The notes under the pieces are model-generated. The model saw only the letters and a program-made list of their open reading frames with translations. It was not told the origin of the DNA and ran no database searches. A program made the translations under genes and the position numbers. Shown piece after piece: positions 13,908 to 55,416 of a DNA stretch of 64,000 nt. This DNA is from Streptomyces asoensis (lineage in GTDB: Bacteria > Actinomycetota > Actinomycetes > Streptomycetales > Streptomycetaceae): the NCBI RefSeq assembly GCF_013085465.1, contig NZ_CP049838.1, forward strand, positions 3,968,001 through 4,032,000, in the 5' to 3' direction. Positions within the stretch are counted from its first letter, which is position 1, and each line of letters begins with the position of its first letter.

Positions 13908-13914
13908 CAGACAC

Positions 13915-35568: not shown

Positions 35569-35850
35569 GTGTCCGGTGCCGTTCCGTCCTCCCACTCTGT
35601 CTCCGCCCGCATGAGCCGCCAAGGCTCCCGCGATACGGCCCCAGAGGTCACCGTCCGACGTCTGCTACATGGCTCCGGCCTTAGCTACCGGGTCAACGTG
35701 CCTGTTCCTGGCATGCCCCGTCGAACCACCAACATCGTCTTCAGCACAGCCAGGATCGCGATCTTCCGGGACGATTGCTTCTGGTACGGCCGCCCGAACA
35801 CGCAACGCACTCGAGTGACGACAGACGTTCGTGAGGCCCAACGACCGTGA
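35569..35850 (+). pseudogene. Decayed Vsr endonuclease copy
   Basis: A 93-residue frame from a GTG that aligns with the first half of the next gene: both have SARMSRQxSxDT, RxLLHxxGLxYRV and PVPGMPRR. The Vsr core is damaged: GCFWHGC is DDCFWYGR here, so the His and Cys of the metal/zinc sites are gone, and the C-terminal third is missing. Its stop overlaps the GTG of the intact vsr by GTGA, so it is still translated ahead of it and may serve only as a leader cistron. A tandem duplication followed by decay is the simple explanation. Confidence 0.8.
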
Positions 35851-36290
35851 ACAGCGTGATGCCCTCCTCTTCCGGTGTCTCAGCCCGCATGAGCAGACAG
35901 GTGAGCAAGGACACGGGAGCCGAGCTGGCCGTGCGCCAGCTGCTGCACGCGGCGGGGCTGCGTTATCGCGTGGAGTACCCCGTTCCGGGCATGCCCCGCC
36001 GCCGGATCGACATTGCTTTCACCGGAGCCAAGATCGCGGTCCTCATCGACGGCTGCTTCTGGCACGGCTGCCCGCAGCACGCCACTTACCCGAAGGCCAA
36101 CGCGGAGTGGTGGCGACAGAAGCTGGACCGGAACATGGCCCGCGATCGGGAGACGACGGAGCATCTGATCGCGGAAGGCTGGACAGTGCTGCGGTTCTGG
36201 GAGCACGAGGCTCCGGAGGAAGTGGCCGTGCGGGTGGGGGCAGCCGTGGAGCGGCGTCAGACGGAACGGACCAGGGGGAGAAGAGAATGA
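35847..36290 (+). CDS. vsr: Vsr-family DNA mismatch endonuclease
   Basis: A 147-residue endonuclease of usual Vsr length. The active-site Asp region is RRRIDIAFTGAKIAVLIDGCFWHGCP, followed by YPKANAEWWRQKLDRNMARDRE and the C-terminal GWTVLRFWEHEAP. In E. coli Vsr nicks at T:G mismatches arising from 5mC deamination. In Vsr-linked restriction systems the same fold acts as the cleaving subunit. It is coupled upstream to the decayed copy (GTGA) and downstream to a methyltransferase (ATGA at 36287), so it belongs to a methylation-based system. Confidence 0.9.
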   Translation: MNSVMPSSSGVSARMSRQVSKDTGAELAVRQLLHAAGLRYRVEYPVPGMPRRRIDIAFTGAKIAVLIDGCFWHGCPQHATYPKANAEWWRQKLDRNMARDRETTEHLIAEGWTVLRFWEHEAPEEVAVRVGAAVERRQTERTRGRRE

Positions 36291-37282
36291 GTGGGCTGAC
36301 CTTCGTGGATGTGTGCTCCGGGGCGGGTGGGCTCGCCCTCGGACTGGAGCAGGCGGGGTTCGAGCCGCGCCTGCTGCTGGACGACGACGAGGCCGCCGTC
36401 AGGACCCTGCGGATCAACCGGCCGCAGTGGAACGTGCTTCACACCGACCTGCTCGACTTCGACCCTGCCGAGCACCGTGTGAGCCACGACGTGGATCTCC
36501 TCTCGGCCGGCCTGCCACGAGTGAAGTCGAGTGCGACCGTCCGGCGGGCGGATTCGGGTGTGGAGGAGCGGCTGTTGGAGGCCACGGTCTATCTCGTCCA
36601 TGCGATCAGACCTCGGGCGGTACTCATCGAGAACGTTCCCGGGCTCGCTCACGCGGACGAGTACCAGCAGTTTCGTGACTTCGCCCGGGCCGAACTGACC
36701 CACCTGGGATACGAGTTCAGTTGGTTCGTCATGAACGCCGTCGACTTCGGCGTACCGCAGAGCCGTAAGCAGGGCGTTCTGGTAGCCGTGGAGCGGCAGC
36801 GTGCCAAGCCCTTCCGGCCGCCGACAGCAACCGTACAGCGGCCGACGACGGTCGGTTCCGCCTTGGGGCCGTCCATGGCCTCACGCGGTTGGCAGGACGC
36901 CGCCCGTTGGGCCGCGCAGGCCGATCGACCGGCTCCGACGCTGGTCGGCGGCTCGAAGAATCGGGGCGGCGCCGACCTGGGGCCGACGGGAGCCAAGCGG
37001 ACATGGGCGACCATGGGCGTCAACGGTCACACCGTGAGCGACGAGATCCCCGGTCCGGACTTCGTGTGGAATCCCGAACTCGGCAGGGACAACATGGTGA
37101 AAATCACGGCTGCGCAGGCGGCGCTGTTGCAGGGCTTTCCTGAATCATGGGAGATCACCGGGCTGAAGACCGCCCGGTACCGCCAGATCGGGCACGCGAC
37201 GCCGCCGCCCGTCGGAAATGCCCTGGGCCAGGCCATCGCCGAGGCACTGGATGCGGATCCGACGATCTTCATTGCCGGCTAG
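36287..37282 (+). CDS. C5-cytosine methyltransferase homolog lacking the catalytic Pro-Cys motif
   Basis: 331 residues. Motif I (FVDVCSGAGGLALGLEQAGF), motif VI (LIENVPGL), motif VIII-like (PQSRKQGV) and motif X (GNALGQAIAEAL) are all present, so the fold and AdoMet pocket are intact. Motif IV should read GGPPCQ; here it is SAGLPRVKSS, with no Cys for the covalent attack on cytosine. By the established mechanism it should not methylate C5 by itself. It may be a partner of the active enzyme at 37294, a target-sensing subunit, or a decayed enzyme; the full-length clean frame argues against decay. ATGA overlap with vsr. Confidence 0.82.
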   Translation: MSGLTFVDVCSGAGGLALGLEQAGFEPRLLLDDDEAAVRTLRINRPQWNVLHTDLLDFDPAEHRVSHDVDLLSAGLPRVKSSATVRRADSGVEERLLEATVYLVHAIRPRAVLIENVPGLAHADEYQQFRDFARAELTHLGYEFSWFVMNAVDFGVPQSRKQGVLVAVERQRAKPFRPPTATVQRPTTVGSALGPSMASRGWQDAARWAAQADRPAPTLVGGSKNRGGADLGPTGAKRTWATMGVNGHTVSDEIPGPDFVWNPELGRDNMVKITAAQAALLQGFPESWEITGLKTARYRQIGHATPPPVGNALGQAIAEALDADPTIFIAG

Positions 37283-37293
37283 ACTTCCGCCAC

Positions 37294-38670
37294 ATGACCA
37301 GCACGGCGTCTCACCAGTCCATCCTCGACAAGCCCTTTGTCCTGGATCTATTCGCAGGTCCCGGCGGGCTGGATGTCGCAGGCCGCGTGCTCGACATCCC
37401 GAGTCTCGGCATCGAATGGGACAGGAGCGCGTGTCTCACGCGATACGCAGCAGGGCTGGACACCCTCCACGCCGATGTGAGCGCGGTACGCAGGGACGCC
37501 TTCGAGTCACTGCCACCAGAGATCAACGTGCTCGCCGGTGGCCCACCCTGTCAGACGTACTCGGTGGCGGGGCACGGCTCCGGGCGGAACGCACTGGACG
37601 AGGTCAAGAAGTACATCGAGCGTCTGATGAAGGGCGACTCCGACCAAGCGATCGACGAGGATCTGAAGACGTTCAGCGACGATCCGCGCACGGCGATGGT
37701 CCTCGAGCCTCTGCGGTACGCCATCCAGGCGACGAGGAGCCCCAACCGGGACAGGCGCCCCTACGACGTCATCGTCTTGGAACAAGTCCCCGCCGTCGAG
37801 GCGCTCTGGCACCACTACGCCAAGGTGCTGAAGGAGATCGGACTGCCCGACGGAACCAAGTACGAGGTCGTCGTCGATGTCCTCGACACCGAGACGTACG
37901 GGGTACCACAGACGCGGTCCCGCGCCGTGCTGATCGCACGGCGGGAAGGGCTCGGTGAGCCCTCGCTTCCCCGGGCAACTCACCTTCCCTACGTGGCGAA
38001 GGAATGGAATCGAAGGAGTGACCAGGCCACGGGTCAGGTCCTTCAGCCGCCTCTTGACGACGACATCGCAGCGGAAATCGAAGAAGGCAGGAAGACGGGC
38101 AAGGAAGCTGAGGAAGCCCCTCAACACTGGAGGTCCATGGGTGAAGTGCTCGCCGAGCCGGTGGGCACGCATCCGGGGCGTGTCACTCCCTTCCTGGTCC
38201 GCTCGAACTACGGAAGTTCAGGCAACCCAGGGCGACGTGGGGTGCGGAGCCACCAGCAGCCCGCCACCACCGTCACCGGCCGTATCTCCCGCTTCGTGGT
38301 CTTCCAACACCTCGACGAGAACATCGTCTACGAGGGCGCGCGATTCAGCATGAACGAGGCGGGGATGCTACAGAGCTTCCCGCCGGACTATCCGTGGTCC
38401 GGTACGGCACGGGCCCAGCAGGTGGGCAATGCCGTGCCGCCCCTGTTCGGTGCGCACCTGCTGAGCGCCGCGCTCGGCATTGCCGCCCCAGCCCCGGAGG
38501 TACTGAGGGAGCCGTGGCAGCCGGCCACGGAGGAAAAGCGGGCCAAGCTGCGAAGCCACGGCTGCGGGGCCACTGACGACTGCACCGCCCGGTGCCCGGT
38601 GCCCGAGGACCAGACGCCGCCCCGCTCTTCCGCTCGCCCGCGCAAGAACAAGAAGATGTCGGCACAGTAG
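37294..38670 (+). CDS. C5-cytosine DNA methyltransferase (Dcm/DrmMII-like)
   Basis: 458 residues with a complete catalytic set: motif I VLDLFAGPGGLDVAG, motif IV LAGGPPCQTYSVAG, motif VI VLEQVPAVEALW (Gln in place of the usual Asn), motif VIII PQTRSRAVLI, motif X QVGNAVPPLFG. A ~60-residue basic tail follows (ends RPRKNKK). It methylates cytosine C5 in DNA, probably as the self-marking enzyme of the island. It starts 11 bp after the Cys-less homolog. The order vsr - MTase - MTase suits a restriction system, and class 2 DISARM carries a similar enzyme, DrmMII. Confidence 0.87.
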   Translation: MTSTASHQSILDKPFVLDLFAGPGGLDVAGRVLDIPSLGIEWDRSACLTRYAAGLDTLHADVSAVRRDAFESLPPEINVLAGGPPCQTYSVAGHGSGRNALDEVKKYIERLMKGDSDQAIDEDLKTFSDDPRTAMVLEPLRYAIQATRSPNRDRRPYDVIVLEQVPAVEALWHHYAKVLKEIGLPDGTKYEVVVDVLDTETYGVPQTRSRAVLIARREGLGEPSLPRATHLPYVAKEWNRRSDQATGQVLQPPLDDDIAAEIEEGRKTGKEAEEAPQHWRSMGEVLAEPVGTHPGRVTPFLVRSNYGSSGNPGRRGVRSHQQPATTVTGRISRFVVFQHLDENIVYEGARFSMNEAGMLQSFPPDYPWSGTARAQQVGNAVPPLFGAHLLSAALGIAAPAPEVLREPWQPATEEKRAKLRSHGCGATDDCTARCPVPEDQTPPRSSARPRKNKKMSAQ

Positions 38671-38691
38671 CTCGCGAGCAATGGAGCCAGG

Positions 38692-39570
38692 TCAATCCTC
38701 GCTCTTCCTGCCTCTGACCGGCGCAGTCTCGAACAGCTCCGCGAAGTAGTCGGTGAGCGCAACCACGGACTCCTCCCGGACGGGATCCTCGTCAGGCCCG
38801 TCTGGGAGACGGCGTCGATCGACGGGTGGTGCCGATCCCGCCTCCGCGATCCAATCCCGCAAACGAGCGGGGTCCCGAGGCTCGTCCGGTGCGAGGACGT
38901 CGTAGACCAAAGTCGCTCCGGCCGCGTTGATCGCGACGCTGAGGCCGAAGATCTCTCGCCCAGTGGTGACCTGTCCACTCTTCAGGAGTCGGACCAAGGC
39001 CTGAGCGGTGGGGCGATGATCGATCAGCTCCATCCGGAGAACCGTGTGGATGAGGTCCTGGTTTCCGCAGGCCGCCTCGACCGGGTCGTAGTCCCGCCCG
39101 TTTCGGAAGAGCTCAGCCGCCCACCACAGACGGGAGAAGCACTGCCGGTCCGCGGGGCCGCGGAAGCGCTCTGCGGCAATGCGTCTTTCCGGCTTGTTGG
39201 CCGTCGGCTCCGACAGGTGCCGCCAGGCGACGTAGTCAGGGGCCACAGCCAGGGCGATGTGGTTCCACAGACGCTTGTCTGCCGCTTCTCGCCGCGTCAG
39301 ACGCAGGGTGGCGTGGAGACGTGTGGCCAGCCATGCGTCGGCCCGCGTGCGGTCCTCCCGGAACTCGTACATGGCGTCTTCCACCAGGCTGCGGACCGGC
39401 TCGACCAACCACCTGGCGTCGTCCTCCGGGAGGGGTTCGACGACCTTGGCGAGATCGATTCCGCCGTGCACCTGTTCGCCTGTGAGCAATTCCTGCGTGA
39501 GGAACGGATCGACAGCCGAGGTGGCGAGCAGCGCCAGGCGCTCGGGTACGTGGTTCGGTGCGGTGATCAC
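38692..39570 (-). CDS. Defence-linked protein, DUF6339-like
   Basis: A 292-residue, mostly helical protein. A basic/aromatic stretch (ADAWLATRLHATLRLTRREAADKRLWNHIALAVAPDYVAWR) and SRLWWAAELFRNGRDY resemble what I recall of DUF6339 proteins found with restriction genes; assignment is tentative. No catalytic motif is seen. It is the last gene of the middle unit, overlaps the upstream 331-residue gene by ATGA, and ends 21 bp from the convergent methyltransferase. Co-translation with the GHKL ATPase suggests a complex. Confidence 0.65.
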   Translation of the reverse strand: MITAPNHVPERLALLATSAVDPFLTQELLTGEQVHGGIDLAKVVEPLPEDDARWLVEPVRSLVEDAMYEFREDRTRADAWLATRLHATLRLTRREAADKRLWNHIALAVAPDYVAWRHLSEPTANKPERRIAAERFRGPADRQCFSRLWWAAELFRNGRDYDPVEAACGNQDLIHTVLRMELIDHRPTAQALVRLLKSGQVTTGREIFGLSVAINAAGATLVYDVLAPDEPRDPARLRDWIAEAGSAPPVDRRRLPDGPDEDPVREESVVALTDYFAELFETAPVRGRKSED

Positions 39571-40562
39571 GTCTCACTCTCTCGGTTCATCTGTTCCAGA
39601 CTGCGGATAGCGTAGGCAAGCGCCCTGGTGGCATCTGCACGGCGGACCGCCGCGTAGTGGATGCGGGTCTGGAGTTCCACCCAGCCCGAGTCCCCGGTGC
39701 GGCGGCGATGGACCTGCCGTAGGGCCTCCTCGACCTGCACGCCGGGAAACACATCCGGGAGCATTTCCCGCAGCACCTCGCCCTGCCAGTCGGTCGGGAA
39801 GACGGGGCCGCTGCCGGGTTCCACCTCCAAGTCACCGATGGCACCGTGGAACACCGCGGTCCAGACGTCGGTGGCCATCTGGGCGACCAAGAGGTCACGC
39901 ACCTTGCTGTCCACGCCGGAGCCGCTGCTGTCCAACAGCCCGATGACCCCCTCGACATCCGTGTTCACGAACACGGTGGGGACTCTGGCCGAGGTGTCCA
40001 CGAGCCAGGGCGCGTCCGCGTAAGCCTGCAACCACTCCCGGGAGCTCTTCCTGAACGAGGCTTTCTGCACGTCTAGTTGGAGCCCACGGACCGGGTCGTC
40101 GGAGACCGTGTCGACGATCCAGCTCCGATCGGTCTCCGCGATCGACCGTCCGTGTACTCCGTCCACCGTCCCGACGGCGTAGACGGCGAGGGAGGCCCGA
40201 CCCAAGTGATCGTCACGGAGCACCTCCAGGGGGCCCGACCAGTCACGGCCGTCCTCCGCGTCACGCGTGAGGTCCACAGAGGTGCGGACATTGGTCTCGC
40301 CGTCCGTCAGAACGGCGAGGACGCGCAGGTCGGACCAGGCCGCGTCCGGCGCGTTCGCGCCGGGCGGCAGCGTCGCCGAGAGGTCGATCGTGGCGCTCAC
40401 CCAGTCGGTGTGGCCCGCGATGCCGAGTGCGACCGTCTGCTGCTGGGTGGAGTACGCGGTGGTCTCCAGTTGGTCGCGGGTGCCGTCGGAGAGCCTGAGG
40501 GACACCGAGGTCACTCTGAGAACGACCGGCCGGTTGAGCCGCTTGTACGGGTAGATCTTCAC
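39567..40562 (-). CDS. Unrecognised defence-linked protein
   Basis: 331 residues, not recognised. The N-terminal half looks beta-rich (MKIYPYKRLNRPVVLRVTSV, LETTAYSTQQQTVALGIAGH, SATIDLSATLPPG), the C-terminal half helical (REMLPDVFPGVQVEEALRQVHRRR). A possibly informative middle is VFVNTDVEGVIGLLDSSGSGVDSKVRD. No signal peptide or membrane span. It starts 3 bp after the XRE-GHKL gene and overlaps the next by ATGA. The unbroken coupling of the three implies they are subunits of one machine. Confidence 0.7.
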   Translation of the reverse strand: MKIYPYKRLNRPVVLRVTSVSLRLSDGTRDQLETTAYSTQQQTVALGIAGHTDWVSATIDLSATLPPGANAPDAAWSDLRVLAVLTDGETNVRTSVDLTRDAEDGRDWSGPLEVLRDDHLGRASLAVYAVGTVDGVHGRSIAETDRSWIVDTVSDDPVRGLQLDVQKASFRKSSREWLQAYADAPWLVDTSARVPTVFVNTDVEGVIGLLDSSGSGVDSKVRDLLVAQMATDVWTAVFHGAIGDLEVEPGSGPVFPTDWQGEVLREMLPDVFPGVQVEEALRQVHRRRTGDSGWVELQTRIHYAAVRRADATRALAYAIRSLEQMNRESET

Positions 40563-40565
40563 TCG

Positions 40566-42731
40566 TCACTCCCCCTTGCCGGCGCGGAGTTCGAGGACGA
40601 GACGGGTGAGAGCAGTCCTGACCGGGTGGCTGGTGACATCGGTCGCCCCTCGGAACTTCGCGCGACGTGTGCCTGGCGCGAAACGCAGGATCCCGTCCTC
40701 CACCTCACAGCCCTCGACGGCCACCAGTTCTGCCCAGTCCAGTTTCGGGCGGCCGCCTGAGCGCACGTCGAGCTGGGCGACCGGCATCATCGGGACGATC
40801 TCGTCACCGCGCGGAATGCTCACTTCCGCGGTGATCCGCCACTCACCGTCGTCTCCGACCGTCGCGTCGAGCCCGGCCAGGACGGGAACCACCGGCCCGG
40901 ACGGCGCCTTGGCCTTGGGCCTCGTCTTCACTGTCAATGCCTTGCGCAGCGCCTCACCGCCTTCGCGGCTGCCGCGCTTGGGCCGCGCGACGAGTTCTCT
41001 CACCGCGCTGTTGACCTCGGTGGTCAGTGTGTTGATCCGCCGGTACGCGGAAGGTGACCAGCGCAGGGTCAACTCCTCGGTCTGCCCCCAGCGGTCATGC
41101 TCGGGCGGTTCCGCCGCGCGCAGGAATTCCTCGGCCTCCTTCGCGAACGGAACCGATTCCCCGGCTGCCTCGCCCACCAGGAGAACGGCCTGGAACGGGT
41201 TCGTGCCGAGCGGCAGGTTCGGGACTCCGGCCGTCTTGACGGTCATACGGTTGCCCCGCAGCGAATGCACCTGGTTCTTCGCTCCGTCCCCGTTCTCGGC
41301 GTCGGTGGCCAGGTCGGTGAGCAACAAGACCGCTTGGTGTGTCCCCAGGGTCCCCCGGGCACCTCCGGACAGCGGCAGTTTCAGGGGAACACTTCGCGCC
41401 GCCACCTGGCCGGCCTCGAGCAGCCGGTCCACGGTGGTGCCCTCGTAGTGCGCTCGCAGGGCACGGGTCCGAGCTGGCTGTTCGGCGGACGGGTCCACCT
41501 GCTTCTCCGGTACAACCACTTCGCCGTTGCGAAGGGCACGAACGGAGACCTCCAAGAGGGGAAGTCTGTTGCCCCCACCGGTCATCGCGGCCCAGAAGTC
41601 GCGCCCCAGCGCCTCGACCAGACGTCGGTGCATCCTACGGATGTCGCGCGTGTCCTCGACGCCCTCCTCGTCCATGGTCTCCTCGTCGACATCGGCCCCG
41701 TTCTCCTCAAGGCTGGCCACGTCGTGCGCGCCGACGATGAGGAAGGACGTGCCGGGTTCGACGCCCTCCCGGGCGAGATGCAGACGAGCGACGGTCGCCT
41801 CGTCCGCCCAGAAGGAACGGGCGACCATCGCGCCGGGAGAATCGGGGTCGGGGCGCCCGAACCAGGCGGGGCCCGCGTACGGCTCACCGTCGACCTCCCG
41901 CCAGGGCAGTTCGAGACGTCCGATGACGCGCCGCTCCGTACGTCCCTCATGGGGCACGGACAGAGTGGAGTTGACGAGTACGAGCCCCAGGGCACTCGTG
42001 GCCCACAGGGTCGCCTTGCCCAGGCCGTATGAACCGCCCGCACCGTGCCCCGACTTGAGACTCTCCAGTTGCCGCCTGACCACGGCGGCGAACTTGCCGT
42101 CCGCGTAGTCGTCTCCGATGAGCCCTGACGCGTTGTAGTCATCGACCCGCAGCAGGACCAGGCGGCCCTTCTCGTACATGTCACGCACTCCGGCGTCCAC
42201 GACTCGGCCGACCTTCTGACTTCCCGCGCCCTCCGAGACGGCGGAGTAGTGGGGGAAGAGGTCGTTCCAGAGGATCGCCTCACGGAAGGCGTCGAGCGTA
42301 TCTCCGGTCAGCTCGTGCAGGGTGTAGCGCACCCTGACAGGGCGGCCGTTCTCGGTGAGACGTTCGTCGAGGCTGTTCTGGCAGGTCTCTCGGGCGAGTA
42401 CCTGCACGTCGGCGTCGAACGCGAAGGCCGCGGCATTGCCCAGGTCACGGCCGCCGTCGGGGTACCCGGGGCGGTGGTACCAGGTGATCGGAAGACCGGC
42501 CTGGGTATCGGTGGTGCGGGTGTGCACCGTGCCGAGGTCCGTGCCGAGCGCCTTGGCGATGTCAACCATGACAGTCGGGCGGGGCGTCGACCTTCCGGTG
42601 ATCCACGCGGAGACGGCAGCTCGAGTGACCCCGGCCTCCTTGGCCAGTTCGGCCTGCGTCTTTCCAGCGAGTTTGAGCTGACGGGCCAGCCAGGGCCCGA
42701 ACTCCTCACCTGTGTCCAACGGTGCCTCCAC
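40566..42731 (-). CDS. GHKL (Hsp90/MutL/MORC-like) ATPase with N-terminal XRE helix-turn-helix
   Basis: 721 residues. Residues 20-60 form an XRE helix-turn-helix (KTQAELAKEAGVTRAAVSAWITG). A GHKL ATPase follows: N-box ARETCQNSLDER (115-125), G1-like RVDDYNASGLIG (195-206) and G2 GGSYGLGKATLW (232-243). MutL/MORC-type GHKL ATPases with Vsr and cytosine methylases are known in restriction systems (Iyer, Abhiman and Aravind 2008). The HTH fused in front could let it repress its own promoter or read a DNA target. GTG start with a GGGGAAGAGCAG site. An inverted repeat lies 57 bp upstream. Confidence 0.83.
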   Translation of the reverse strand: MEAPLDTGEEFGPWLARQLKLAGKTQAELAKEAGVTRAAVSAWITGRSTPRPTVMVDIAKALGTDLGTVHTRTTDTQAGLPITWYHRPGYPDGGRDLGNAAAFAFDADVQVLARETCQNSLDERLTENGRPVRVRYTLHELTGDTLDAFREAILWNDLFPHYSAVSEGAGSQKVGRVVDAGVRDMYEKGRLVLLRVDDYNASGLIGDDYADGKFAAVVRRQLESLKSGHGAGGSYGLGKATLWATSALGLVLVNSTLSVPHEGRTERRVIGRLELPWREVDGEPYAGPAWFGRPDPDSPGAMVARSFWADEATVARLHLAREGVEPGTSFLIVGAHDVASLEENGADVDEETMDEEGVEDTRDIRRMHRRLVEALGRDFWAAMTGGGNRLPLLEVSVRALRNGEVVVPEKQVDPSAEQPARTRALRAHYEGTTVDRLLEAGQVAARSVPLKLPLSGGARGTLGTHQAVLLLTDLATDAENGDGAKNQVHSLRGNRMTVKTAGVPNLPLGTNPFQAVLLVGEAAGESVPFAKEAEEFLRAAEPPEHDRWGQTEELTLRWSPSAYRRINTLTTEVNSAVRELVARPKRGSREGGEALRKALTVKTRPKAKAPSGPVVPVLAGLDATVGDDGEWRITAEVSIPRGDEIVPMMPVAQLDVRSGGRPKLDWAELVAVEGCEVEDGILRFAPGTRRAKFRGATDVTSHPVRTALTRLVLELRAGKGE

Positions 42732-42787
42732 CTGCTCTTCCCCTCGAGGTCGCCCAGGGCTCGCGGGCGACTGACCAGGAGGCTAAT

Positions 42788-42809
42788 TTGACACAGCGAA
42801 CACTGTCAA
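42788..42809. promoter_or_regulatory. Palindromic operator/promoter of the XRE-GHKL unit
   Basis: TTGACA, ten bases, TGTCAA. On the minus strand the TTGACA half could also be a -35 element for the GHKL operon. The XRE domain encoded just downstream makes autoregulation plausible. Confidence 0.55.
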
Positions 42810-43597: not shown

Positions 43598-43647
43598 CTC
43601 AAATACACTTTCGCCCGGATCTTTGACATCTCAGGAGTGCAGGACCA

Positions 43648-46600: not shown

Positions 46601-48411
46601 ACAGGAACAGCGTGGTGCAGCGGTGCACCGAGCTGGAGGAGGTCACCCGCACGCCCAACGGCACCCAGGCCACACCCTTGGACGCCGTCCGCCAGGACGG
46701 CGTCGTCAAGGTCCGTGTCCCGCTGGATCCCGAACCGATGCTCCGCCTGATCGACCGCGAACTCGCGTTGGGCCTGGGTGCCTCCGGCTGCCGGGCCGTG
46801 CTCGAACACCAGGACCGCATGGCCCGGGACAGTGCGATGCAGACGGCCCGGAAGGCCGTGCGCGACACCTCGGACGTGGTCACCAAGATCGAGCTGCTGG
46901 TCGGGGCGGAGGCGCTCCGGATCGGTCTCCCCGAAGGGTTGATGGAGGCGGAGCTGCAAGCGACCGACGGCGTACAGCCCTCGGGGCGGCGGATCGCGCA
47001 AATGGCTTTCAACGCCCACGGCGACGGTGTCCTCCATCAGCACGCCCGCGACATCCAGGGACGGTTCCCCGACGCCCCCGTCTCCTACACCGGCTCTTCG
47101 TCCGCCGTCGCCTTCGTGTCGGACCTGAAGCTTCCGGTGTCCTTCGCGGGCTCACGGACCCCAACCCCACCGGCGTTCGAGACCGTCGAAGGCCCTCGGG
47201 ACTTCCCGAGCCTCCACGAGTACCAGGAGGACCTGGTCCGCAACATCACCACCATGCTGGACCGTCTCGCTCCCCAGCGCGGGATGCTGTCGTTGCCGAC
47301 CGGCGCGGGCAAGACCCGGGTCACCGCCGAGGCAGTGATCCGCTGGGTCAAGCGCGTCGGCGACCTGAACGGACCGCTGCTGTGGATCGCGCAGACCGAG
47401 GAACTGTGCGAACAGGCCGTGCAGAGCTGGAAGTTCGTCTGGAGCAAGGTGGGTGCGGAGCGTCCGCTGACCATAAGCCGGCTCTGGAGCGGCAACGAGG
47501 TCGGGAACATCCTCGACCACCCGCACCTGGTGGTCGCCACCGACGCCAAACTGGATCGCTGCCTGGACACCGAACCGTACACATGGCTACGGCAGGCCGC
47601 GCTGGTGATCGTGGACGAGGCCCACACCGCCGTCTCCCCGCGATACACCGCGATCCTGCGGCAGTTGGGGCTCACCCAGTACGAGACCGGTCGGCACCTC
47701 CTCGGCCTGACGGCCACGCCCTTCCGCAACACCAACGAGGAGGAGACCCGTCGTCTGGTCGGGCGCTTCGGGAACCGTCGACTCGACGAGGGTGTCTTCC
47801 CGTCCGGTGATCCGTACCGGGACCTCCAGGAGTGGGGGATGCTCGCGCAGGTGGAGCACCGCACCCTGGAAGGCGGTCGGATCGAACTGACCCGTGACGA
47901 GAAGGCTCAGGCCGAACGGATGGCGATGCTGTCCCGTGCCGCCGAGCAGCGGCTCGCCGACGACCACGCACGCAGCCGGCGCATCGTCGACTCGGTGGCC
48001 GACCTGCCCGACGACTGGCCGACGCTGCTCTTCGCCACCTCCGTCGACCACGCCAAGTACCTGGCGGCCATGCTCAACGACCGGGGGATCCGATCCGCCG
48101 CCGTGGACGCGACGACCAGCCCACAGGACCGTCGTACACGCATCGAGAAGTTCCGTGACGGACGGATCCAGGTGCTCACCAACTACGGCGTACTCACCCA
48201 GGGATTCGACGCTCCGGCCACCCGTGCCGTGGTCGTGGCCCGGCCGGTCTACAGCACCAACGTCTACCAGCAGATGATCGGTCGTGGTCTGCGCGGTCCG
48301 CTCAACGGTGGCAAGGACACCTGCCTGATCCTCAACGTCAGCGACAACATCGCGAACTTCGACACCCGACTCGCCTTCACCCAGTTCGAGCACCTGTGGA
48401 GCAGAAAGTGA
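43648..48411 (+). CDS. GHKL ATPase / SF2 helicase fusion, 1587 residues
   Basis: The N-terminus is a sacsin/Hsp90-like GHKL ATPase: N-box RQLFELVQNAADEI (about 48-61), ANEGSPVT, and G2 GQIGRFGVGVKSVL (about 105-118). About 1000 residues of unrecognised sequence follow. The C-terminal ~390 residues are an SF2 helicase: Walker A LPTGAGKTRV (about 1213), DEAH in VIVDEAHTAV (about 1320), TATPF, and motif VI QMIGRGLRGP. Large proteins of this layout occur in defence islands; the GHKL part may sense or clamp and the helicase translocate on DNA. GTG start with AGGAGTGCAGGACCA upstream. The 3' end overlaps the SF1 helicase gene. Confidence 0.85.
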   Translation: MSSSLSPVIETVIEQSSRVLKTYAVDPGLVAEHANGERRITQGGYGDRQLFELVQNAADEIADEPGGRVHVVLTKTHLYCANEGSPVTAEGAETILRMSMSKKRGGQIGRFGVGVKSVLVVTDAPEFFSSTGSFGFDRAWSYEQIQNVPGVAARYGPKFDAPVLRMARPLDAQAERATDPVLDELLAWATTVVRLPLLPKADRRLGLDMHGGRAKEHGEPRDEFPVGFQLFSPHVAKVVLEDRRHLPAARRVLTTRQAGDLHTVTEDRTGKASTIRWRVFTTTHTPGPAAQADAGELHDRLSLDLSWGVPALRKDPETGLYVNPQIRGRGRFWSFFPTKYEMSLSGILNGAWKTNEDRQNLLDSSPFNQEMIRVSAALVVDSLPALAPAEDPAAYLPLLPGRVKEAISWADEFLTREIWARAATRPSLPDQDGVLRAPAELRIHPRFDKKDLKRLAGWLRTWHECPGRPSNWLHPSVETDSLRSGKVEHILDAARHERADVRAWLEALVESGTAEASAAAIRILANMIEVGSPYAEEARKAHVVLTEEHGLVPPVHGRVFRRAEEGGLRESLVYVVDSLAQDDSLAHALDLLGIREADVEGRFVSVLDQGFDGYRDAEWQRFWELFRRAGIPRLSLKVLERVPAPGSTLRVRTTDGRFRPIEDCMLPGKVVDARRDPTVAVDLAFHSDDTAFFNQVGLRDRPSTGVRPTEGEAWFEEYREAVHSAYLRSLDSRAPRPSLNRMKVEGAAIGGPLHLFRALSDESRAAFLKALPDDAVVDNWTLQIGAQSGTRQAVISPIRWMLRKYGTVATSQGIKPLKEAVGPQLTAYRDVLPVADLSAEKARKLRLPSTVDEVPADRWATLLDEVSRSEDDSFVGTTYVMLTRFGADFPEDALTRCRIGDAWGTRPDDEITLAVGPAEYGVLRAEQVPALLVPTVEDADLMVEKWGMHRYSDMISRETREVLEGDPVPLVELYPALRRHLNSSNRNSVVQRCTELEEVTRTPNGTQATPLDAVRQDGVVKVRVPLDPEPMLRLIDRELALGLGASGCRAVLEHQDRMARDSAMQTARKAVRDTSDVVTKIELLVGAEALRIGLPEGLMEAELQATDGVQPSGRRIAQMAFNAHGDGVLHQHARDIQGRFPDAPVSYTGSSSAVAFVSDLKLPVSFAGSRTPTPPAFETVEGPRDFPSLHEYQEDLVRNITTMLDRLAPQRGMLSLPTGAGKTRVTAEAVIRWVKRVGDLNGPLLWIAQTEELCEQAVQSWKFVWSKVGAERPLTISRLWSGNEVGNILDHPHLVVATDAKLDRCLDTEPYTWLRQAALVIVDEAHTAVSPRYTAILRQLGLTQYETGRHLLGLTATPFRNTNEEETRRLVGRFGNRRLDEGVFPSGDPYRDLQEWGMLAQVEHRTLEGGRIELTRDEKAQAERMAMLSRAAEQRLADDHARSRRIVDSVADLPDDWPTLLFATSVDHAKYLAAMLNDRGIRSAAVDATTSPQDRRTRIEKFRDGRIQVLTNYGVLTQGFDAPATRAVVVARPVYSTNVYQQMIGRGLRGPLNGGKDTCLILNVSDNIANFDTRLAFTQFEHLWSRK

Positions 48412-50309
48412 TCGACGCCTACCTCGACAGCCCACCGCTCACCGATGAGCAGCAGGCCGTGGTCGAGCAGCCCTGGGACGCACGTGTCCTGGTCACCGCG
48501 GGGGCCGGGGCGGGCAAGACACACACGTTGGTGCGCCGGCTCGACGCGCTGTGCGGTCACGACGACCCCGACGAGGCGTTGGAGGCCGCCGAGATCCTGG
48601 TGCTCACCTTCTCCCGGGCCGCCGCCCGCGAGTTGCGCGAGCGCATCGCCCGGCACGGGGAGCGGGCCCGCCGGGTGCGTGCCCAGACCTTCGACGCCTG
48701 GGCATACGGGGTGCTCCTCCAGGCTCATCCGGACGGCGAGTGGGGTGCGGTCGGCTTCGACGAACGGATCGGCGCCGCGGCCCGGGCGATCGAGGAGGGG
48801 GCGCTGGAGGCCGGGGACGCCGTCCCACCCGCTCATGTCGTGATCGACGAGGTACAGGATCTGGTGGGCGGGCGTCGCGAGCTGGTGGAGACGCTGCTCG
48901 ACCGGTACCAGGACAGCTGCGGCTTCACGGTCGTCGGCGACGCCGCCCAGTCCGTCTACGGCTTCCAGATCGAGGATCTGGCCGAACGCGCCGACGAGAC
49001 CGGGCGGTTCTTCGACTGGCTGCGCGGCTCGTACCCCGACGAACTCGTGGAACTACGCCTCACGCGGAACTTCCGAGCCGTCACCCCCGAGGCCCGGATC
49101 GCGTTGGCACACGGCCCCCGGCTCCAGCAGGTCGCCGACGCGGACGAGGCGGCGACCGCTTACGAGGAACTGCGCGAACTCCTCCTGGATCCGGCGAACG
49201 ATCTGGGCGACCTCACCGATCCGTTCACCTTGGACGGATTGCGGGCCTTCCCCGACACCTGTGCGATCCTCACCCGCGACAACCGACAGGCACTGGTGGT
49301 CTCCGGCCTGCTCCACGAGCACGGCGTCGAGCACCGGCTGCGGCGCCCTCTCGAAGAGCGGCCGGTGCCGTACTGGGTGGCCGAGTTGTTGCGCCGCACC
49401 GAGGCGACCGGCCTCACCGAGGAACGGTTCCGCTCGCTGCTCGCGGAGATCCCGCTGCCGTACGAGCCGGACGCGACCGTCCTGTGGACGGTGCTGCGGC
49501 GGGCCGCGCGCTCCGCCGGCCGCGGAGTGCTCGATCTGGAACGGCTGCTCCGCTCGGTCGCCGACGGCAGGTTCCCCGACGAAGCGGCCGACCCGGAGAC
49601 CGCGCGCATCGTCGTCTCCACCGTGCATCGGGCCAAGGGGCTCGAGTTCGACCGGGTGATCGTCCTGACCCCACCGACCGTCGCCGAACTGCGCAAGCAG
49701 TACAAGGACGAGTTGGACCTCTCCGCCGAGGCCCGAGCCTTGTACGTGGCGATGACTCGCGCCCGCGAGGACCTGTACCACGCGCGGTCCCCCGAGCTGC
49801 CGATCATCAAGAGAGCGGGCGGCCGAAAGAACGGCCGCCGCTACGTCGGCGGATGGCGGTCGTACGACAGATACGGCGTCGTCGCCGAGGCGGGGGACGT
49901 CTGCCGGGACAACCCACCCGGCCACGAGAGCGACGCAGTGGCGACCCAGGCATACCTCCTGACTCAGATCGGCCCCGGGCAGGACGTCGTGCTGCGCAAA
50001 CGCCACGATCTGCCGATGGGCGAGTACCAGAGCCCGCCGTACGCTCTGGTGCACGGAGGCCGGGAGATCGGTGAGGCGTCGGAGCGGTTCCGGGAGGAGC
50101 TGTTCCAGGTGCAGAAGGTGAACAGGACGTGGGACCCCCGGTGGCCGGACGAGATCCACGGCATACGGGTCGACACTCTGGAGACGGTGACAGGCAGCGC
50201 CGCCGCCGGCGCCAACGCCGGTCTCGGCGACCGTGGGGCGTGGATCGTCCCCCGAGTCACCGGCATCGGAAGGTATCGACGGGCCGACGAGGAGGAGCAG
50301 AGCGCATGA
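48408..50309 (+). CDS. UvrD/Rep-type SF1 helicase
   Basis: 633 residues with ordered SF1 motifs: Q-motif LTDEQQAVVEQ, Walker A AGAGAGKTHTL (about 32-42), motif Ia LTFSRAAARELRERI, motif II VIDEVQDLV, motif III VVGDAAQSVYGFQ, motif IV LTRNFRA, motif V TVHRAKGLEFDRVIVL and motif VI YVAMTRARED. No nuclease domain is seen. GTG 48408 overlaps the upstream stop (GTGA) with GGAG six bases before; GTG 48396 in frame is the alternative. It overlaps drmA by ATGA. A 3'-5' DNA translocase within the defence complex is the likely role. Confidence 0.88.
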   Translation: MIDAYLDSPPLTDEQQAVVEQPWDARVLVTAGAGAGKTHTLVRRLDALCGHDDPDEALEAAEILVLTFSRAAARELRERIARHGERARRVRAQTFDAWAYGVLLQAHPDGEWGAVGFDERIGAAARAIEEGALEAGDAVPPAHVVIDEVQDLVGGRRELVETLLDRYQDSCGFTVVGDAAQSVYGFQIEDLAERADETGRFFDWLRGSYPDELVELRLTRNFRAVTPEARIALAHGPRLQQVADADEAATAYEELRELLLDPANDLGDLTDPFTLDGLRAFPDTCAILTRDNRQALVVSGLLHEHGVEHRLRRPLEERPVPYWVAELLRRTEATGLTEERFRSLLAEIPLPYEPDATVLWTVLRRAARSAGRGVLDLERLLRSVADGRFPDEAADPETARIVVSTVHRAKGLEFDRVIVLTPPTVAELRKQYKDELDLSAEARALYVAMTRAREDLYHARSPELPIIKRAGGRKNGRRYVGGWRSYDRYGVVAEAGDVCRDNPPGHESDAVATQAYLLTQIGPGQDVVLRKRHDLPMGEYQSPPYALVHGGREIGEASERFREELFQVQKVNRTWDPRWPDEIHGIRVDTLETVTGSAAAGANAGLGDRGAWIVPRVTGIGRYRRADEEEQSA

Positions 50310-53300
50310 CACAGGTGGCAGGCCGGCACTCCGAGCACTATCGGGTCCGGGACGAGGAACTGCTGGTAGGGCTCCGCCGCGAGCTTCTCGGTCCCGCTCC
50401 GGGCGCCGCGCCGGAGGACCGGGACGAAGTCCTTGCCGAGGACGCGCCGATCGACCGCTACCTGACCGGCGTCCTGTACCCGCGATCGGCCGACCCGACC
50501 GCGGAGCAGCGGATCCGTGAGGACGAGGCCGAGTACGAAGGTCTGGACGTCACCCCGCTGCGCACGCGTGACAGCGTCGAGGAGTCCGGTACCGCGCAGG
50601 AGGTGGGTGCCTCGGGCTCCCGCCGCCCCTCGTCCATGGGCCTCACCTTCGCGGTCGACCCGGCCATAAGCGACTCGATCGTGGTCTCGGCGCGCGCGGC
50701 CGTCTACGAGCCCACGGATCCGGAGGGCAAACCCATTCCGGCCCGCCGTGCCGAGGCTCGCACCACCTCCGAACAGCGGGAGCGGTGGCGACGCAAGGAA
50801 CTCGTCCTTCCGGACGCCCCGGTCGACGTGACCTCACCCGCGCCCGACAAGAAGTTCGACCTCGGTGCGGGAGCTCTGCTGCGCGTCAACGTCCGACGCC
50901 CTCACCCGACCACCGGCACGGTCACAGTCACGGTCACACTCGTCAACACCCACCAGGTCGGCGAGCGCGAACTCCAGGACGCGTTCTCCCTGTTCCAGTG
51001 CGGTGTCACCGTCCGCGCGGCTGACGGGTCCACCGCCTTCGTCGAGCGCCCCGCCCCCGGCGCCCACGACGCGGAGGTCGCCACGAGCAGGCTGCTGCAC
51101 CGACACGCACCGACCTTCGCCGTCGGCCACGGTTGCGCCGCCGAATGGGACTGGACCCCGCCCCCGATCGGCATGACCGACACCGTAACGGCCGCTGTGG
51201 CCGAGGTTCGGAGCGAGTTCGTCCCCAGCGTGGAAGTACTGCTCACCGACTCCAATCCGGAGAGCGACAGCCCAGCGCTGTCCATGCTGGGGCTGGCGGA
51301 GAAGTCCGACACCGAGGTCCTGGCCGCTCTGGAAAAGCTCGCCACAGGGTACGAGCGCTGGATCGAGCGCAAGGCGGCCGAGGCGGAGGCCTTGACGGGC
51401 GGCACCCACGAGGAGCCCGCACGGAATCAGGTGGAGGCCTGCCGCGAGGCGCTCGACCGGATCCGTGAGGGCATCGAGCTGCTGCGGACCGAGCCCGACC
51501 TGATGAGGGCGTTCCGGCTCGCCAACCGTGCCATGGCGGACCAGCGTGCCCGTAGCGCCTGGGTGAAGAGCGGACGCGTCGGCGCCCCCGACCCGGCCGC
51601 CGGTCGCTGGCGCCCCTTCCAGATCGCGTTCGTGCTGCTCTGCCTGGCCGGCATCGACGACCCCGGCCACCGCGACCGGGACGTCTCCGATCTGCTGTGG
51701 TTCCCCACGGGTGGTGGCAAGACGGAGGCCTACCTAGGGCTCATCGCCCTCACGTCCTTCCTGCGTCGCATCCGCAAGGGTGCGGACGGCGGTGGTGTCA
51801 CCGTCCTCATGCGCTACACGTTGCGGCTGCTCACCCTCCAGCAGTTCGAGCGCGCGGCGATCCTGCTCTGCGCCATGGAGCACATGCGACGCCGCACACC
51901 CGAGTTGGGACGTGAGGAGTTCTCCATCGGCATGTGGGTGGGGCGCTCTGCCACCCCCAACACACTGACCGTGGCCGGCCAGAAGCTGGACGAGCTGCGC
52001 AGGAGCCTCGACAAGCGGCTCGCCACCGAGAACCCCGTTCAGCTGCATGCCTGTCCCTGGTGCGGCACCCACCTCGACGCCCGGAACTACGAGATCGACG
52101 AGCACGCCAAGCGGATGCGCGTTCGCTGTCCCGGCACGGATTGCGAGTTCACCGACGGTCTGCCCGTCCACCTGATCGACGAGGCGGTGTACAGCGCTCG
52201 TCCCACACTGGTGATCGCCACGGTCGACAAGTTCGCGTCGATGCCGTGGCGTCCGGCGACCTCGGCGCTCTTCAACCTCGACGACCTGGACGCCGGCACT
52301 CCTCCCCCGGAGCTGATCGTTCAGGACGAACTCCACCTGATCTCCGGCCCGTTGGGGACACTGACCGGCCTGTACGAGACCGCTGTGGACGCACTCGCGG
52401 GCCGGCCCAAGGTGATCGCCTCCACAGCGACCATCCGTCGCGCCGCCGACCAGGGCCGCCACCTCTTCGCTCGCGGTGTTCGCCAGTTCCCGCCCGCAGG
52501 TCTGGACTCCCGCGACTCGTGGTTCGCCGTGGAGACCCCGCGCGAGGAGAAGGCGAGCCGGCGCTACGTCGGCCTCCTGGCGCCCGGCACCAGCCAGTCC
52601 ACCCTGCTGATCCGCACGTACGCCACGCTGCTGCATCGGGCCAAGCACGCGGAGACCGCCGACGAGGTGCGCGACGCGTACTGGAGTCTCGTCGGCTATT
52701 TCAACAGTCTCCGGCTGCTCTCCGCGGCCGAACTCCAGGTCCACGACGACGTGGTGGCCTATCTGGAGCTGCTCGCCGAGCGCGAGGGGGTGACGGTCCG
52801 CTCGGTCGCCAACTACTCGGAGCTGACCAGCCGTGTCGACGCCAGCGAGATTCCGACGCGTCTCAAGGGCATCGAGAAGAGGCTTCCCGACGAGGACACG
52901 GTGGATGTCCTCCTGGCCACCAACATGATCGCGGTGGGTGTGGACGTGGACCGCCTCGGTCTCATGGCCGTGATGGGCCAGCCGCAGACAACCGCCGAGT
53001 ACATCCAGGCGACGAGCCGTGTCGGCCGCGCGCACCCCGGCCTGGTCACGGTCATGCTCAACTCGACCCGGTCTCGAGACCGATCCCACTACGAGAGCTT
53101 CCAGCACTTCCATTCGGCCCTCTACCGTGAGGTCGAGTCCACCTCCGTGACACCGTTCTCCGCCCGCGCCCGCGAACGGGGCCTTCACGCGGTGATCGTC
53201 GCTCTCGCCCGCATCCTGATCCTGGACGCTCGCCCCAACGAGGGTGCAGGCAAGGTCGAGTCCTACGAACACATTCTCCGGGGCCGTATCAAGTCCGTGC

Positions 53301-53554
53301 TCCTGGAACGCGTAGAAGCGGTCACCCCGGAAGAGGTCGAGGCCACGTCCCATGCCTTCGACGAGTTCGTCGAGTGGTGGTGCAAGGAGGCGAGCAACAA
53401 CAGTGGCCTCCTCTTCGAGCCGAAACCGGGCAGTCGTGCCCCTTCCCTTCTGAAGGCGTACGACGACTCCAAGGACGTCAAGGCGTGGGACACGCTGTGG
53501 AGTCTGCGCGACGTCGACGCCGAGTCCACCCTGTTCATGGAGGGAACCCGATGA
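50306..53554 (+). CDS. drmA: DISARM helicase DrmA
   Basis: 1082 residues. After a beta-rich N-terminal ~330 residues comes an SF2 helicase: LLWFPTGGGKTEAYLGL (Walker A, about 465-480), a zinc knuckle CPWCGTHLD with CPGTDCEF (about 582-610), DELHLISGPLG (motif II, about 674), TATIRRA and a C-terminal lobe ending QATSRVGRAHPG (motif VI, about 900). The TGGGKTEAY and QDELHLISGP signatures are those of DrmA. DrmA with DrmB engages incoming DNA in DISARM anti-phage defence. ATGA overlaps on both sides; GAGGAGGAGCAG ribosome site. Confidence 0.9.
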   Translation: MTQVAGRHSEHYRVRDEELLVGLRRELLGPAPGAAPEDRDEVLAEDAPIDRYLTGVLYPRSADPTAEQRIREDEAEYEGLDVTPLRTRDSVEESGTAQEVGASGSRRPSSMGLTFAVDPAISDSIVVSARAAVYEPTDPEGKPIPARRAEARTTSEQRERWRRKELVLPDAPVDVTSPAPDKKFDLGAGALLRVNVRRPHPTTGTVTVTVTLVNTHQVGERELQDAFSLFQCGVTVRAADGSTAFVERPAPGAHDAEVATSRLLHRHAPTFAVGHGCAAEWDWTPPPIGMTDTVTAAVAEVRSEFVPSVEVLLTDSNPESDSPALSMLGLAEKSDTEVLAALEKLATGYERWIERKAAEAEALTGGTHEEPARNQVEACREALDRIREGIELLRTEPDLMRAFRLANRAMADQRARSAWVKSGRVGAPDPAAGRWRPFQIAFVLLCLAGIDDPGHRDRDVSDLLWFPTGGGKTEAYLGLIALTSFLRRIRKGADGGGVTVLMRYTLRLLTLQQFERAAILLCAMEHMRRRTPELGREEFSIGMWVGRSATPNTLTVAGQKLDELRRSLDKRLATENPVQLHACPWCGTHLDARNYEIDEHAKRMRVRCPGTDCEFTDGLPVHLIDEAVYSARPTLVIATVDKFASMPWRPATSALFNLDDLDAGTPPPELIVQDELHLISGPLGTLTGLYETAVDALAGRPKVIASTATIRRAADQGRHLFARGVRQFPPAGLDSRDSWFAVETPREEKASRRYVGLLAPGTSQSTLLIRTYATLLHRAKHAETADEVRDAYWSLVGYFNSLRLLSAAELQVHDDVVAYLELLAEREGVTVRSVANYSELTSRVDASEIPTRLKGIEKRLPDEDTVDVLLATNMIAVGVDVDRLGLMAVMGQPQTTAEYIQATSRVGRAHPGLVTVMLNSTRSRDRSHYESFQHFHSALYREVESTSVTPFSARARERGLHAVIVALARILILDARPNEGAGKVESYEHILRGRIKSVLLERVEAVTPEEVEATSHAFDEFVEWWCKEASNNSGLLFEPKPGSRAPSLLKAYDDSKDVKAWDTLWSLRDVDAESTLFMEGTR

Positions 53555-55416
53555 CCCCACCCCCCGCCCGCCGTCGCCGGACCGGCGCACAAGGCTCCGC
53601 ACCCGCCCACAACCTCCCACGGCGCGGTACGGTCCGGCGTGCCCAGGTGATCACCACGTACGGCATCGGATCGCTCATCGCCGTCGACCAAGAATCCTTC
53701 GTGGTCTCCGGCCTGGACGAGGCGGACCGGAGCTGGAGCGACAACGAGTCCCCGCGGATCCACGAACGGCGCTTGGCCCGCCTGCTCGACGTCGACCACT
53801 TCCGGCTGCCGCCCGCGTCCGACGACAAGAGCAGGGACGGCCTCAGGGTCAGGCGCTTTCCCTTGATGCACTCCTGCCCCGAGTGCAACGATCTTCAGCG
53901 ACACCGTGACTTCAACCCGCCGGCCGGTCGTAGTGTCTGCGGCACGTGCGAGGCCGACCTCGTCCCCTCCCGCTTCGTCGTCGCCTGCGAGTCCGGACAC
54001 CTTGGCGAGTTCCCGTACTGGCAGTGGGTGCACCGTTCCACGGACCGCAGTGCCGCGGCGGCCGGGCAGTGCGGGGGGAAGCTCAAGATGCGCACGTCCG
54101 GGCGTACGTCCTCGCTCCGCTCGATCCTCATCTCCTGCACCTGTGGCAAAGCCCCCGAGGTCTCGATGGAGGGCTCCTTCCGCAGGAACGCGCTCAAGGA
54201 CCTGGGCCTCAAGTGTCATGGCACCCGCCCGTGGCTCGGCACGTCCGCCCCCGCTCAGGAGTGCGGGCTCCCTCTGCGCACGCTTCAGCGCGGTTCCTCG
54301 GCGGTGTGGCAGCCGGTGCTGAAGTCGGCGCTCTCCATCCCGCCGTGGAGCGACGGCCGCGCGGATCCGCTTGCCGAGCACTGGGAGGAACTCCGCAAGC
54401 TCGACAGCCGCGCGGAGGTCGAGATGTGCCTCAAGTTCGCGTTCAAGGGTGAGATCCCGATTCCGATCGACGAGGTGATGGAACTGCTCGACGCGGAGCG
54501 CGAGGAGGACTCCGACGGCGAGTCGGATCCCACTCTCGACCACCGCTACCGCGCCCTGCGCAACAAGGAGTACGAGCGTCTCCGCTCGGGCAACGACGAG
54601 AGTGAGCACTCCCACGAGGAGCAGTTCGTCTGCGAAACCCCGCTGGGCGACCAGAGCGTACTCCTTCCGCTCGGCGTCACCGGGCCGATGCTGGTCAAGA
54701 AGCTCCGCGAGGTACGCGCCCTGAAAGCGTTCACCCGGCTTGCAGACCCCGACTCGACGACCGAATCGAAGGAGATGCCACTCTCCGGCTCCCCCTTGCG
54801 CTGGCTCCCGGCCATGGAGGTTCGCGGAGAGGGAGTCTTCCTCCGCCTGGACAATGACCGACTGGGCACCTGGGAGAAGGCTGCGGCGGTCGCCGCACGG
54901 GTCGAGCGGATGCGCACCGCCCACCAACGGGTGCTGGAGCAGCGGGCAGGAGACCCGAGCAGTGTCGTACCTTCCCCGGCCACCCCTCGCATGGTGCTGC
55001 TGCACACACTGGCGCACGTCCTCATCAACGAGTGGAGCCTGGACGCGGGCTACCCGGCCGCTTCCCTGCGCGAGCGTCTGTACGCCGCCGACGACATGGC
55101 GGGGGTGCTCATCTACACCGCGACGAGCGACTCGGCGGGCAGCCTCGGCGGGCTCGTCGCCCAAGGTGAGCCGGACCGCCTCGACCGGGCGATCCGTTCA
55201 GCCGTCCATCGCGCCGAGTGGTGCTCCTCAGACCCGCTCTGCGTCGAGTCCGAGGCGTCGGGCACCGGCGGCACCAACCTCGCAGCCTGCCACGCCTGTG
55301 TGATGCTCCCGGAGACGAGTTGCGAGCACAACAACATCCTGTTGGACCGCGCGCTGCTCGTCGGCACCCCGGAAGATCCTCGCCTGGGCTTCTTCGCAAA
55401 CGTTCTGGAGCAGTGA
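53551..55416 (+). CDS. drmB: DISARM DUF1998 protein DrmB
   Basis: 621 residues. The N-terminal part starts RRGTVRRAQVITTYGIGSLIAVDQESFVVSGLD and carries Cys pairs HSCPECND, CGTCEAD and ACESGHLGEFPYW. The C-terminal DUF1998 domain begins LLHTLAHVLINEWSLDAGYPAASLRERL and ends with CSSDPLC and CHACVMLPETSCE, likely zinc ligands. This matches DrmB, partner of DrmA, coupled by ATGA at 53551. The next DISARM gene would be drmC (a phospholipase-D-type nuclease); none follows, and 55417-55634 is empty. Confidence 0.9.
   Translation: MTPPPARRRRTGAQGSAPAHNLPRRGTVRRAQVITTYGIGSLIAVDQESFVVSGLDEADRSWSDNESPRIHERRLARLLDVDHFRLPPASDDKSRDGLRVRRFPLMHSCPECNDLQRHRDFNPPAGRSVCGTCEADLVPSRFVVACESGHLGEFPYWQWVHRSTDRSAAAAGQCGGKLKMRTSGRTSSLRSILISCTCGKAPEVSMEGSFRRNALKDLGLKCHGTRPWLGTSAPAQECGLPLRTLQRGSSAVWQPVLKSALSIPPWSDGRADPLAEHWEELRKLDSRAEVEMCLKFAFKGEIPIPIDEVMELLDAEREEDSDGESDPTLDHRYRALRNKEYERLRSGNDESEHSHEEQFVCETPLGDQSVLLPLGVTGPMLVKKLREVRALKAFTRLADPDSTTESKEMPLSGSPLRWLPAMEVRGEGVFLRLDNDRLGTWEKAAAVAARVERMRTAHQRVLEQRAGDPSSVVPSPATPRMVLLHTLAHVLINEWSLDAGYPAASLRERLYAADDMAGVLIYTATSDSAGSLGGLVAQGEPDRLDRAIRSAVHRAEWCSSDPLCVESEASGTGGTNLAACHACVMLPETSCEHNNILLDRALLVGTPEDPRLGFFANVLEQ

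Follow-up and report, generated by a model that had tools for sequence, protein, structure and literature searches.

The question raised by the island of defence genes at positions 35,569 to 55,416 of the DNA analysed here (64,000 nucleotides of Streptomyces asoensis, NCBI RefSeq assembly GCF_013085465.1, contig NZ_CP049838.1, positions 3,968,001 to 4,032,000; referred to as the window) is whether its genes form one system or a random pile-up, and what might stand in for the nuclease gene drmC beside drmA and drmB of the defence island system associated with restriction-modification (DISARM). The island carries vsr, two genes of the C5-cytosine methyltransferase family (referred to as MT1 and MT2), a triad encoding a DUF6339 protein, protein B, and XRE-GHKL, and, facing it, a quartet encoding GHKL-SF2, an SF1 helicase, DrmA, and DrmB; triad and quartet together are referred to as the seven-gene core. 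Profile searches and a re-check of the coordinates confirmed every gene listed in an earlier note on this DNA. The comparisons below support the view that these genes form a conserved system and probably behave as one, and our tentative reading, which we hold possible rather than probable, is a DISARM-like anti-phage system of three modules: MT1 as a reader, the triad as a switch, and the quartet as an effector.

A protein search with GHKL-SF2 gave 73 named loci with at least 51% identity, 65 of them from Streptomyces, so the result describes the GHKL-SF2 clade. Seventy were evaluable, with enough contig on both sides (L082, L094, and L101 were dropped because the contig was too short), and in all 70 the seven core genes were complete and identical in order and orientation, including loci of Rhodococcus, Amycolatopsis, Actinomadura, Yinghuangia, and Hamadaea with approximately 50% protein identity. 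At least one flanking gene was common with the window in 49/70, and none was in the DNA compared in 21/70, two of which (L049 and L055) were cut at the left by a contig end. The correlations of pairwise identities among the seven core genes were 0.87-0.98, and those wherever MT1, MT2, or vsr was involved were 0.24-0.76 (0.46-0.76 for these three against the core). In a class-level set of 16 regions, 14 retained all four quartet genes. The proposal of the earlier note that the locus is one system was thus supported, and conservation of drmAB alone, with the other genes varying at random, is not what the relatives show. GHKL-SF2 (at least 45% identity) was found in 33 of 199 home-genus genomes, 32 of which also contained XRE-GHKL, and XRE-GHKL without GHKL-SF2 was found in 12 of the 199. 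In a sample of the phylum, in which only two candidates per genome were scored, the XRE-GHKL profile matched at 1e-15 in 2 of 396 genomes, both of the home genus. No near match to the island was found on plasmids, and a peptide-pattern scan of viral contigs gave no relative. In one of the 33 genomes with GHKL-SF2 (G171, locus L125), this gene was in two pieces and DrmB, DrmA, SF1, XRE-GHKL, MT1, MT2, and vsr were retained; this may be a decaying copy.

The ATP-site and helicase motifs examined were largely invariant in XRE-GHKL, GHKL-SF2, SF1, and DrmA (alignments of 61 to 72 rows): the QNSLDE and GSYGLGKAT motifs of the XRE-GHKL ATP site were nearly invariant (71 rows), as were largely both the GHKL and the helicase motifs of GHKL-SF2 (72 rows). 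In DrmB, 16 Cys residues were kept at at least 95% of 70 rows.

MT1 has Arg in motif IV (AGLPRVKS) where the cytosine-attacking Cys is expected, and in a profile alignment with DNMT1 structures its PR sits at the PC of PPCQ. Arg occupied this position in 28/28 aligned proteins, 81/81 aligned rows (the window included), and all 119 of the database homologues listed, from 3673 matches. A wider set of 90 open reading frames (ORFs) contained Arg in 84, Ser in three, Cys in one, and a gap in two, Cys being absent in 87 of the 88 readable sequences; the Ser variants came from deeper loci (L213, L216, and L217) and the sole Cys from a locus without the triad (L176). MT1 otherwise keeps the conserved columns of the methylase fold and is, as predicted from these alignments, a conserved dead methylase. 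MT2 keeps the motif IV Cys (PCQTYS) in 74/78 rows, with a gap in the other four. The two C5-methyltransferase genes of the earlier note are therefore both present, but they are not both ordinary. The dead homologues of MT1 that bear names are labelled as cytosine or 5-methylcytosine methyltransferases, and a methylome predicted on the assumption that they are active would therefore be wrong.

The closest active relatives found for MT1 were plasmid methylases, five of which were examined from 26 plasmid records matched: these were 42-44% identical to MT1, all had PCPPFS, and their recognition stretch was almost the same as that of MT1. A gene for an NgoMIV- or NaeI-family endonuclease was adjacent or one gene off in four of the five records. 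The site of NaeI is GCCGGC. The cleavage by NgoMIV is given as G|CCGGC in an excerpt of PMC6344858. On the Rhodococcus opacus plasmid pROB02 (L192:8108-21089), helicase, DUF1998, and NERD genes stand beside vsr, an NaeI-family endonuclease gene, an HNH gene, and an active MT1 relative. Counts of GCCGGC were 20 in the island (21.9 expected) and 85 in the rest of the window (94.9 expected), and are uninformative on avoidance. MT1 accompanied the triad closely: among 127 loci, with the triad scored by XRE-GHKL, it was present in 87/91 with XRE-GHKL and in 1/36 without (this count leaves out L094, L101, three loci from Archaea, and the short ones, L001-L033, L127-L158, and L193-L211). The four misses include a truncated gene (L086) and a locus cut off where its stretch stops (L212).

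The layout of the island is summarized in the table. The degenerate vsr copy lies directly upstream of intact vsr. ATGA overlaps join SF1 to DrmA and DrmA to DrmB, and GHKL-SF2 (1587 amino acids) and SF1 overlap by 16 bases when the longest ORF is taken. The small ORF upstream of GHKL-SF2 had tblastn relatives in the same position in L034, L035, L038, L062, L067, and L069; an iterated profile extended these to 39 loci, all on the plus strand, with some rows doubtful, and the ORF is fast evolving.

Table. Genes of the island, in window coordinates, with the evidence for each assignment (pLDDT, predicted local distance difference test).
Feature	Position	Strand	Evidence
Degenerate second vsr copy, truncated; His of FWHGC replaced by Tyr	35569..35853	+	Translation; vsr profile 103.7 bits vs 260.6 for intact vsr
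vsr, intact	35847..36290	+	TIGR00632 110 bits, cut-off 97.85; aligns to E. coli Vsr 1cw0
MT1, C5-methyltransferase family, motif IV catalytic Cys replaced by Arg; M.NgoMIV/M.NaeI-like recognition stretch	36287..37282	+	PF00145
MT2, C5-cytosine methyltransferase, PCQTYS motif intact	37294..38670	+	PF00145
Triad C, DUF6339 protein, helical, without clear fold match	38692..39570	-	PF19866 50.7 bits; PDC-M33C; AlphaFold2 pLDDT 87.3
Triad B, Ig-like beta-sandwich N-terminus and helical C-terminus (predicted model)	39567..40562	-	
Triad A, XRE-GHKL: XRE-type helix-turn-helix and GHKL ATPase	40566..42731	-	HTH_3; PDC-M33A
Small ORF, 60 amino acids	43257..43439	+	tblastn relatives; iterated profile
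Quartet 1, GHKL-SF2: sacsin/GHKL-type N-terminus and C-terminal RadD-like SF2 helicase	43648..48411	+	NF047352 above cut-off; NF053632 weaker; TmtA N-terminal match
Quartet 2, UvrD/GajB-like SF1 helicase without NERD domain	48396..50309	+	PF00580, PF13361, GajB models, alignment; start codon not fixed
Quartet 3, DrmA, short type, YprA-family helicase	50306..53554	+	NF038325; PDB 7s9v DrmA E=1.6e-179; start from ATGA overlap
Quartet 4, DrmB, MZB/DUF1998-type zinc-binding partner	53551..55416	+	NF038324; PF09369

In the reading that we tentatively prefer, MT2 would methylate host DNA and mark self, and MT1, derived from a GCCGGC-type methylase but dead, would keep its DNA recognition and hold on unmodified sites as a reader. 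The triad together with MT1 may form an ATP-driven clamp or switch that reports non-self DNA, and the quartet, as a putative effector, would load on the flagged DNA, unwind it, translocate, and block replication and transcription, the final degradation being left to host nucleases. Vsr would be an accessory that repairs T:G mismatches from deaminated 5-methylcytosine made by MT2. DrmAB has been proposed to unwind DNA and block replication in DISARM (excerpt of PMC9142583). For the discrimination of phage from host DNA by DISARM, a conserved dead methylase that accompanies a GHKL triad is a concrete candidate reader, and one front end with interchangeable effectors would explain the origin of many DISARM-like neighbourhoods.

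Several points weigh against this scheme. In known DISARM, DrmA itself has been proposed as the methylation sensor, and phages without a methylation target are restricted (both in excerpts of PMC9142583), which leaves no need for a separate reader of sequence. MT2 may have a target other than GCCGGC; its stretch 301-340 is not hypervariable. The structure models of B and DUF6339 gave no functional match. L081 and L118 have the triad without MT1, and L120 has MT1 without the triad. The quartet, or most of it, occurred without the triad and MT1 in eight of the 16 class-level regions (L218-L225) and in L119 and L121; the triad and MT1 cannot, therefore, be needed by every quartet. An orphan GHKL-SF2 (52%) was found in L094/L214. 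The loci are also related by kinship, with at least two duplicated (L226 = L064 and L214 = L094), and defence genes cluster anyway.

MT1 might, on the other hand, be a regulator, either an inactive partner, comparable to DNMT3L, that stimulates MT2 or directs it, or a repressor of the operon, with the triad and quartet reading DNA structure; MT1 adjoins MT2 in most loci. We consider this unlikely because MT1 varies independently of MT2 (L041-L043 versus L037; r = 0.65), lies apart from it in L063-L065 and L074, and stays with the triad when the effector changes. A reading of structure would agree with the proposal, in an excerpt of PMC9142583, that DrmAB discriminates by DNA structure, not by sequence.

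The island might instead unite two or three independent systems that co-travel in a hotspot and are mechanically uncoupled: a methylase unit with Vsr, a GHKL triad resembling PDC-M33, and a DISARM-like quartet. The modules do occur apart. Besides the quartets without the triad (L119-L121 and L218-L225), XRE-GHKL, MT1, and vsr accompanied other effectors in L107-L117, as did the triad in L107-L118, and L059 combines halves of two lineages. The predicted system is, thus, modular. The site of the island, flanked by an SEC-C gene (window 34279-35337) and by HATPase/DUF5753 genes (window 55635-57361), is a hotspot, and the same site in other genomes (L258-L277; 20 sites, from 45 genomes with the SEC-C gene) held other defence-like cassettes or almost nothing. 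Since 49 of the 70 loci have a flank common to the window, many are not independent insertions. Mechanical independence nevertheless appears quite improbable in view of the fixed order of the seven genes in 70/70 loci, 21 of them without a common flank seen and down to approximately 50% identity, the high co-divergence of the core genes, and an association of the triad with DISARM that recurs in haloarchaea.

XRE-GHKL relatives occurred in five plasmid records. Three of these (Halobaculum, Halomicrobium, and Haloplanus) carried genes for GHKL, B-like, and DUF6339 proteins near helicase, DrmB-type, and PLD genes, with a cytosine methylase gene also nearby. PADLOC models confirmed DrmB, DrmC, and DrmMII in the Halobaculum and Halomicrobium plasmids, and in the latter an annotated DrmE adjoins the helicase; the haloarchaeal helicases and the genes of Haloplanus are named here as annotated. 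No annotated DISARM was present in the stretch inspected of the other two records (Halobacterium sp. DL1 and Synechococcus). In a search of 11 sequences, the archaeal B proteins gave weak yet significant matches to the B profile (2.6e-09 to 4.9e-12). The Halomicrobium plasmid contained two GHKL-B-DUF6339 triads within 14 kb (L191:8230-21994). In L108 (5904-9530), the XRE-GHKL frame has a MzaA-like N-terminal extension with sigma-70 regions 2 and 4, and in L161 and L163 comparable sigma-like proteins are encoded upstream of DrmA. Elsewhere in the window, two tRNA-Lys (CTT) genes (7871-7945 and 13834-13908) lie 6 kb apart.

DrmA and DrmB both exceeded the NCBIfam cut-offs (NF038325, 1004 bits versus 950; NF038324, 477.6 bits versus 240). 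No DrmC, DrmD, DrmE, or DrmMI model was among the PADLOC matches listed for the ten window proteins, which for the two methyltransferases and SF1 comprise at most 25 each, and the same model library detected DrmD and DrmMI in L178. In the whole genome (10 Mb, a single contig), PLDc_2, the fold of the drmC nuclease, was found in two open frames only, at approximately 4.79 and 4.81 Mb, both more than 760 kb from the island at approximately 4.00-4.02 Mb; a drmC elsewhere in the genome was rejected on this basis, and none lies just outside the gene set. The absence of drmC and of the class 1 and class 2 extras reported in the earlier note was, therefore, borne out, but its value as a distinctive feature was not: DISARM can dispense with drmC, which its operons often lack (excerpt of PMC9142583), and its absence here alone is thus not striking and is weak evidence of novelty. 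In 20 further home-genus DrmA regions (DrmB called in 18), a pattern search confined to called ORFs found the HKD pattern in three ORFs, none directly after DrmB. One of the 20 regions (L178:1508-14168) holds a DrmD-DrmMI-DrmA-DrmB locus, and none of the ORFs called downstream of its drmB bears HKD. L161 combines DrmAB with McrBC-like genes and with a small SF1 helicase.

The suggestion of the earlier note that Vsr replaces DrmC as the effector nuclease is very improbable: Vsr is the sole recognisable nuclease in the locus, and fusions of Vsr-type domains with YprA helicases occur in ARMADA (excerpt of PMC12458937), but vsr, present in 62/70 complete cores, was not found within approximately 10 kb on each side in the other eight (profile checked), was moved or flipped in L041, L084, L092, and L100, and followed the divergence of the core poorly (r 0.50-0.65), and is therefore unlikely to encode an essential nuclease. 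The conserved residues of Vsr are intact. Its usual role, to repair the mismatches left when 5-methylcytosine is deaminated, is in keeping with the presence of a cytosine methylase in the locus. The same role is stated in an excerpt of PMC8011034. The search for a hidden nuclease covered B, DUF6339, and the C-terminus of SF1. AlphaFold2 models of B and DUF6339 had good pLDDT and gave no significant nuclease-like match among the matches listed, although a missing structure match is no proof against a nuclease; those of DUF6339 include the HEPN RNase AbiV at E >2, which is not significant, and no PDB match at E<=0.001 was found for this model. At the C-terminus of SF1, a D-ExK pattern was not seen by eye in the alignment.

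In agreement with the earlier note, no named system with this list of genes emerged from PADLOC or from the literature. Literature searches on the gene set, PDC-M33, TmtA, DUF6339, and dead methylases, in part confined to the top-ranked results, gave no description of the set or of the dead methylase and no publication naming PDC-M33. Parts of the locus resemble known families. XRE-GHKL and DUF6339 matched the PADLOC candidate families PDC-M33A (2.1e-21) and PDC-M33C (4.8e-10), respectively, but B had no match and the PDC-M33A match was mainly over the GHKL part; the haloarchaeal relatives matched somewhat better than the window proteins. The N-terminus of GHKL-SF2 matched that of TmtA in PADLOC. 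Druantia type II consists of DruM with DruE, DruF, and DruG: the DruM model was the best match of MT1 (E=1.2e-89), but DruE, DruF, and DruG were not among the matches listed. Both methyltransferases also matched DrmMII models, more weakly than DruM or general methyltransferase models. No BrxH (BrxHII-like helicase), PglX, or Mza family was among the PADLOC matches listed for the window proteins, in the last case unlike MzaABCDE-like systems; Mza models matched in L108, L112, L161, and L163. MT1 resembles the NgoMIV/NaeI type II methylases in its identity to the five plasmid examples and a near-identical recognition stretch, but lacks the catalytic Cys, and no restriction endonuclease gene was recognised beside it. 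The restriction-modification neighbourhoods of MORC/paraMORC likewise bring together GHKL ATPases, SF2 helicases, cytosine methylases, and Vsr endonucleases, but DrmA/DrmB, a GHKL-SF2 fusion, and a dead methylase are not described in the excerpt of PMC2292703. ARMADA, from a 2025 survey of YprA (PMC12458937), shares the YprA-family helicase core, a GajB-like SF1 helicase (type II), and Vsr-type domains with the island; however, DrmB is a separate gene here, and the gene set is not described in the excerpt of the survey. Since neither drmC nor the class-defining genes could be found (drmC, drmD, drmMI, and drmE being absent from the matches listed), the locus is not filed as class 1 or class 2 DISARM, from which it also differs by the addition of GHKL-SF2, SF1, the triad, dead MT1, and Vsr. 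It shares with DISARM both DrmA and DrmB, a nearby C5-methyltransferase as in class 2, and the same kind of triad as in a haloarchaeal locus with annotated DrmE, helicase, DrmB, and DrmC, and we regard it as a DISARM-like variant that probably works as a relative of DISARM, with a putative anti-phage role.

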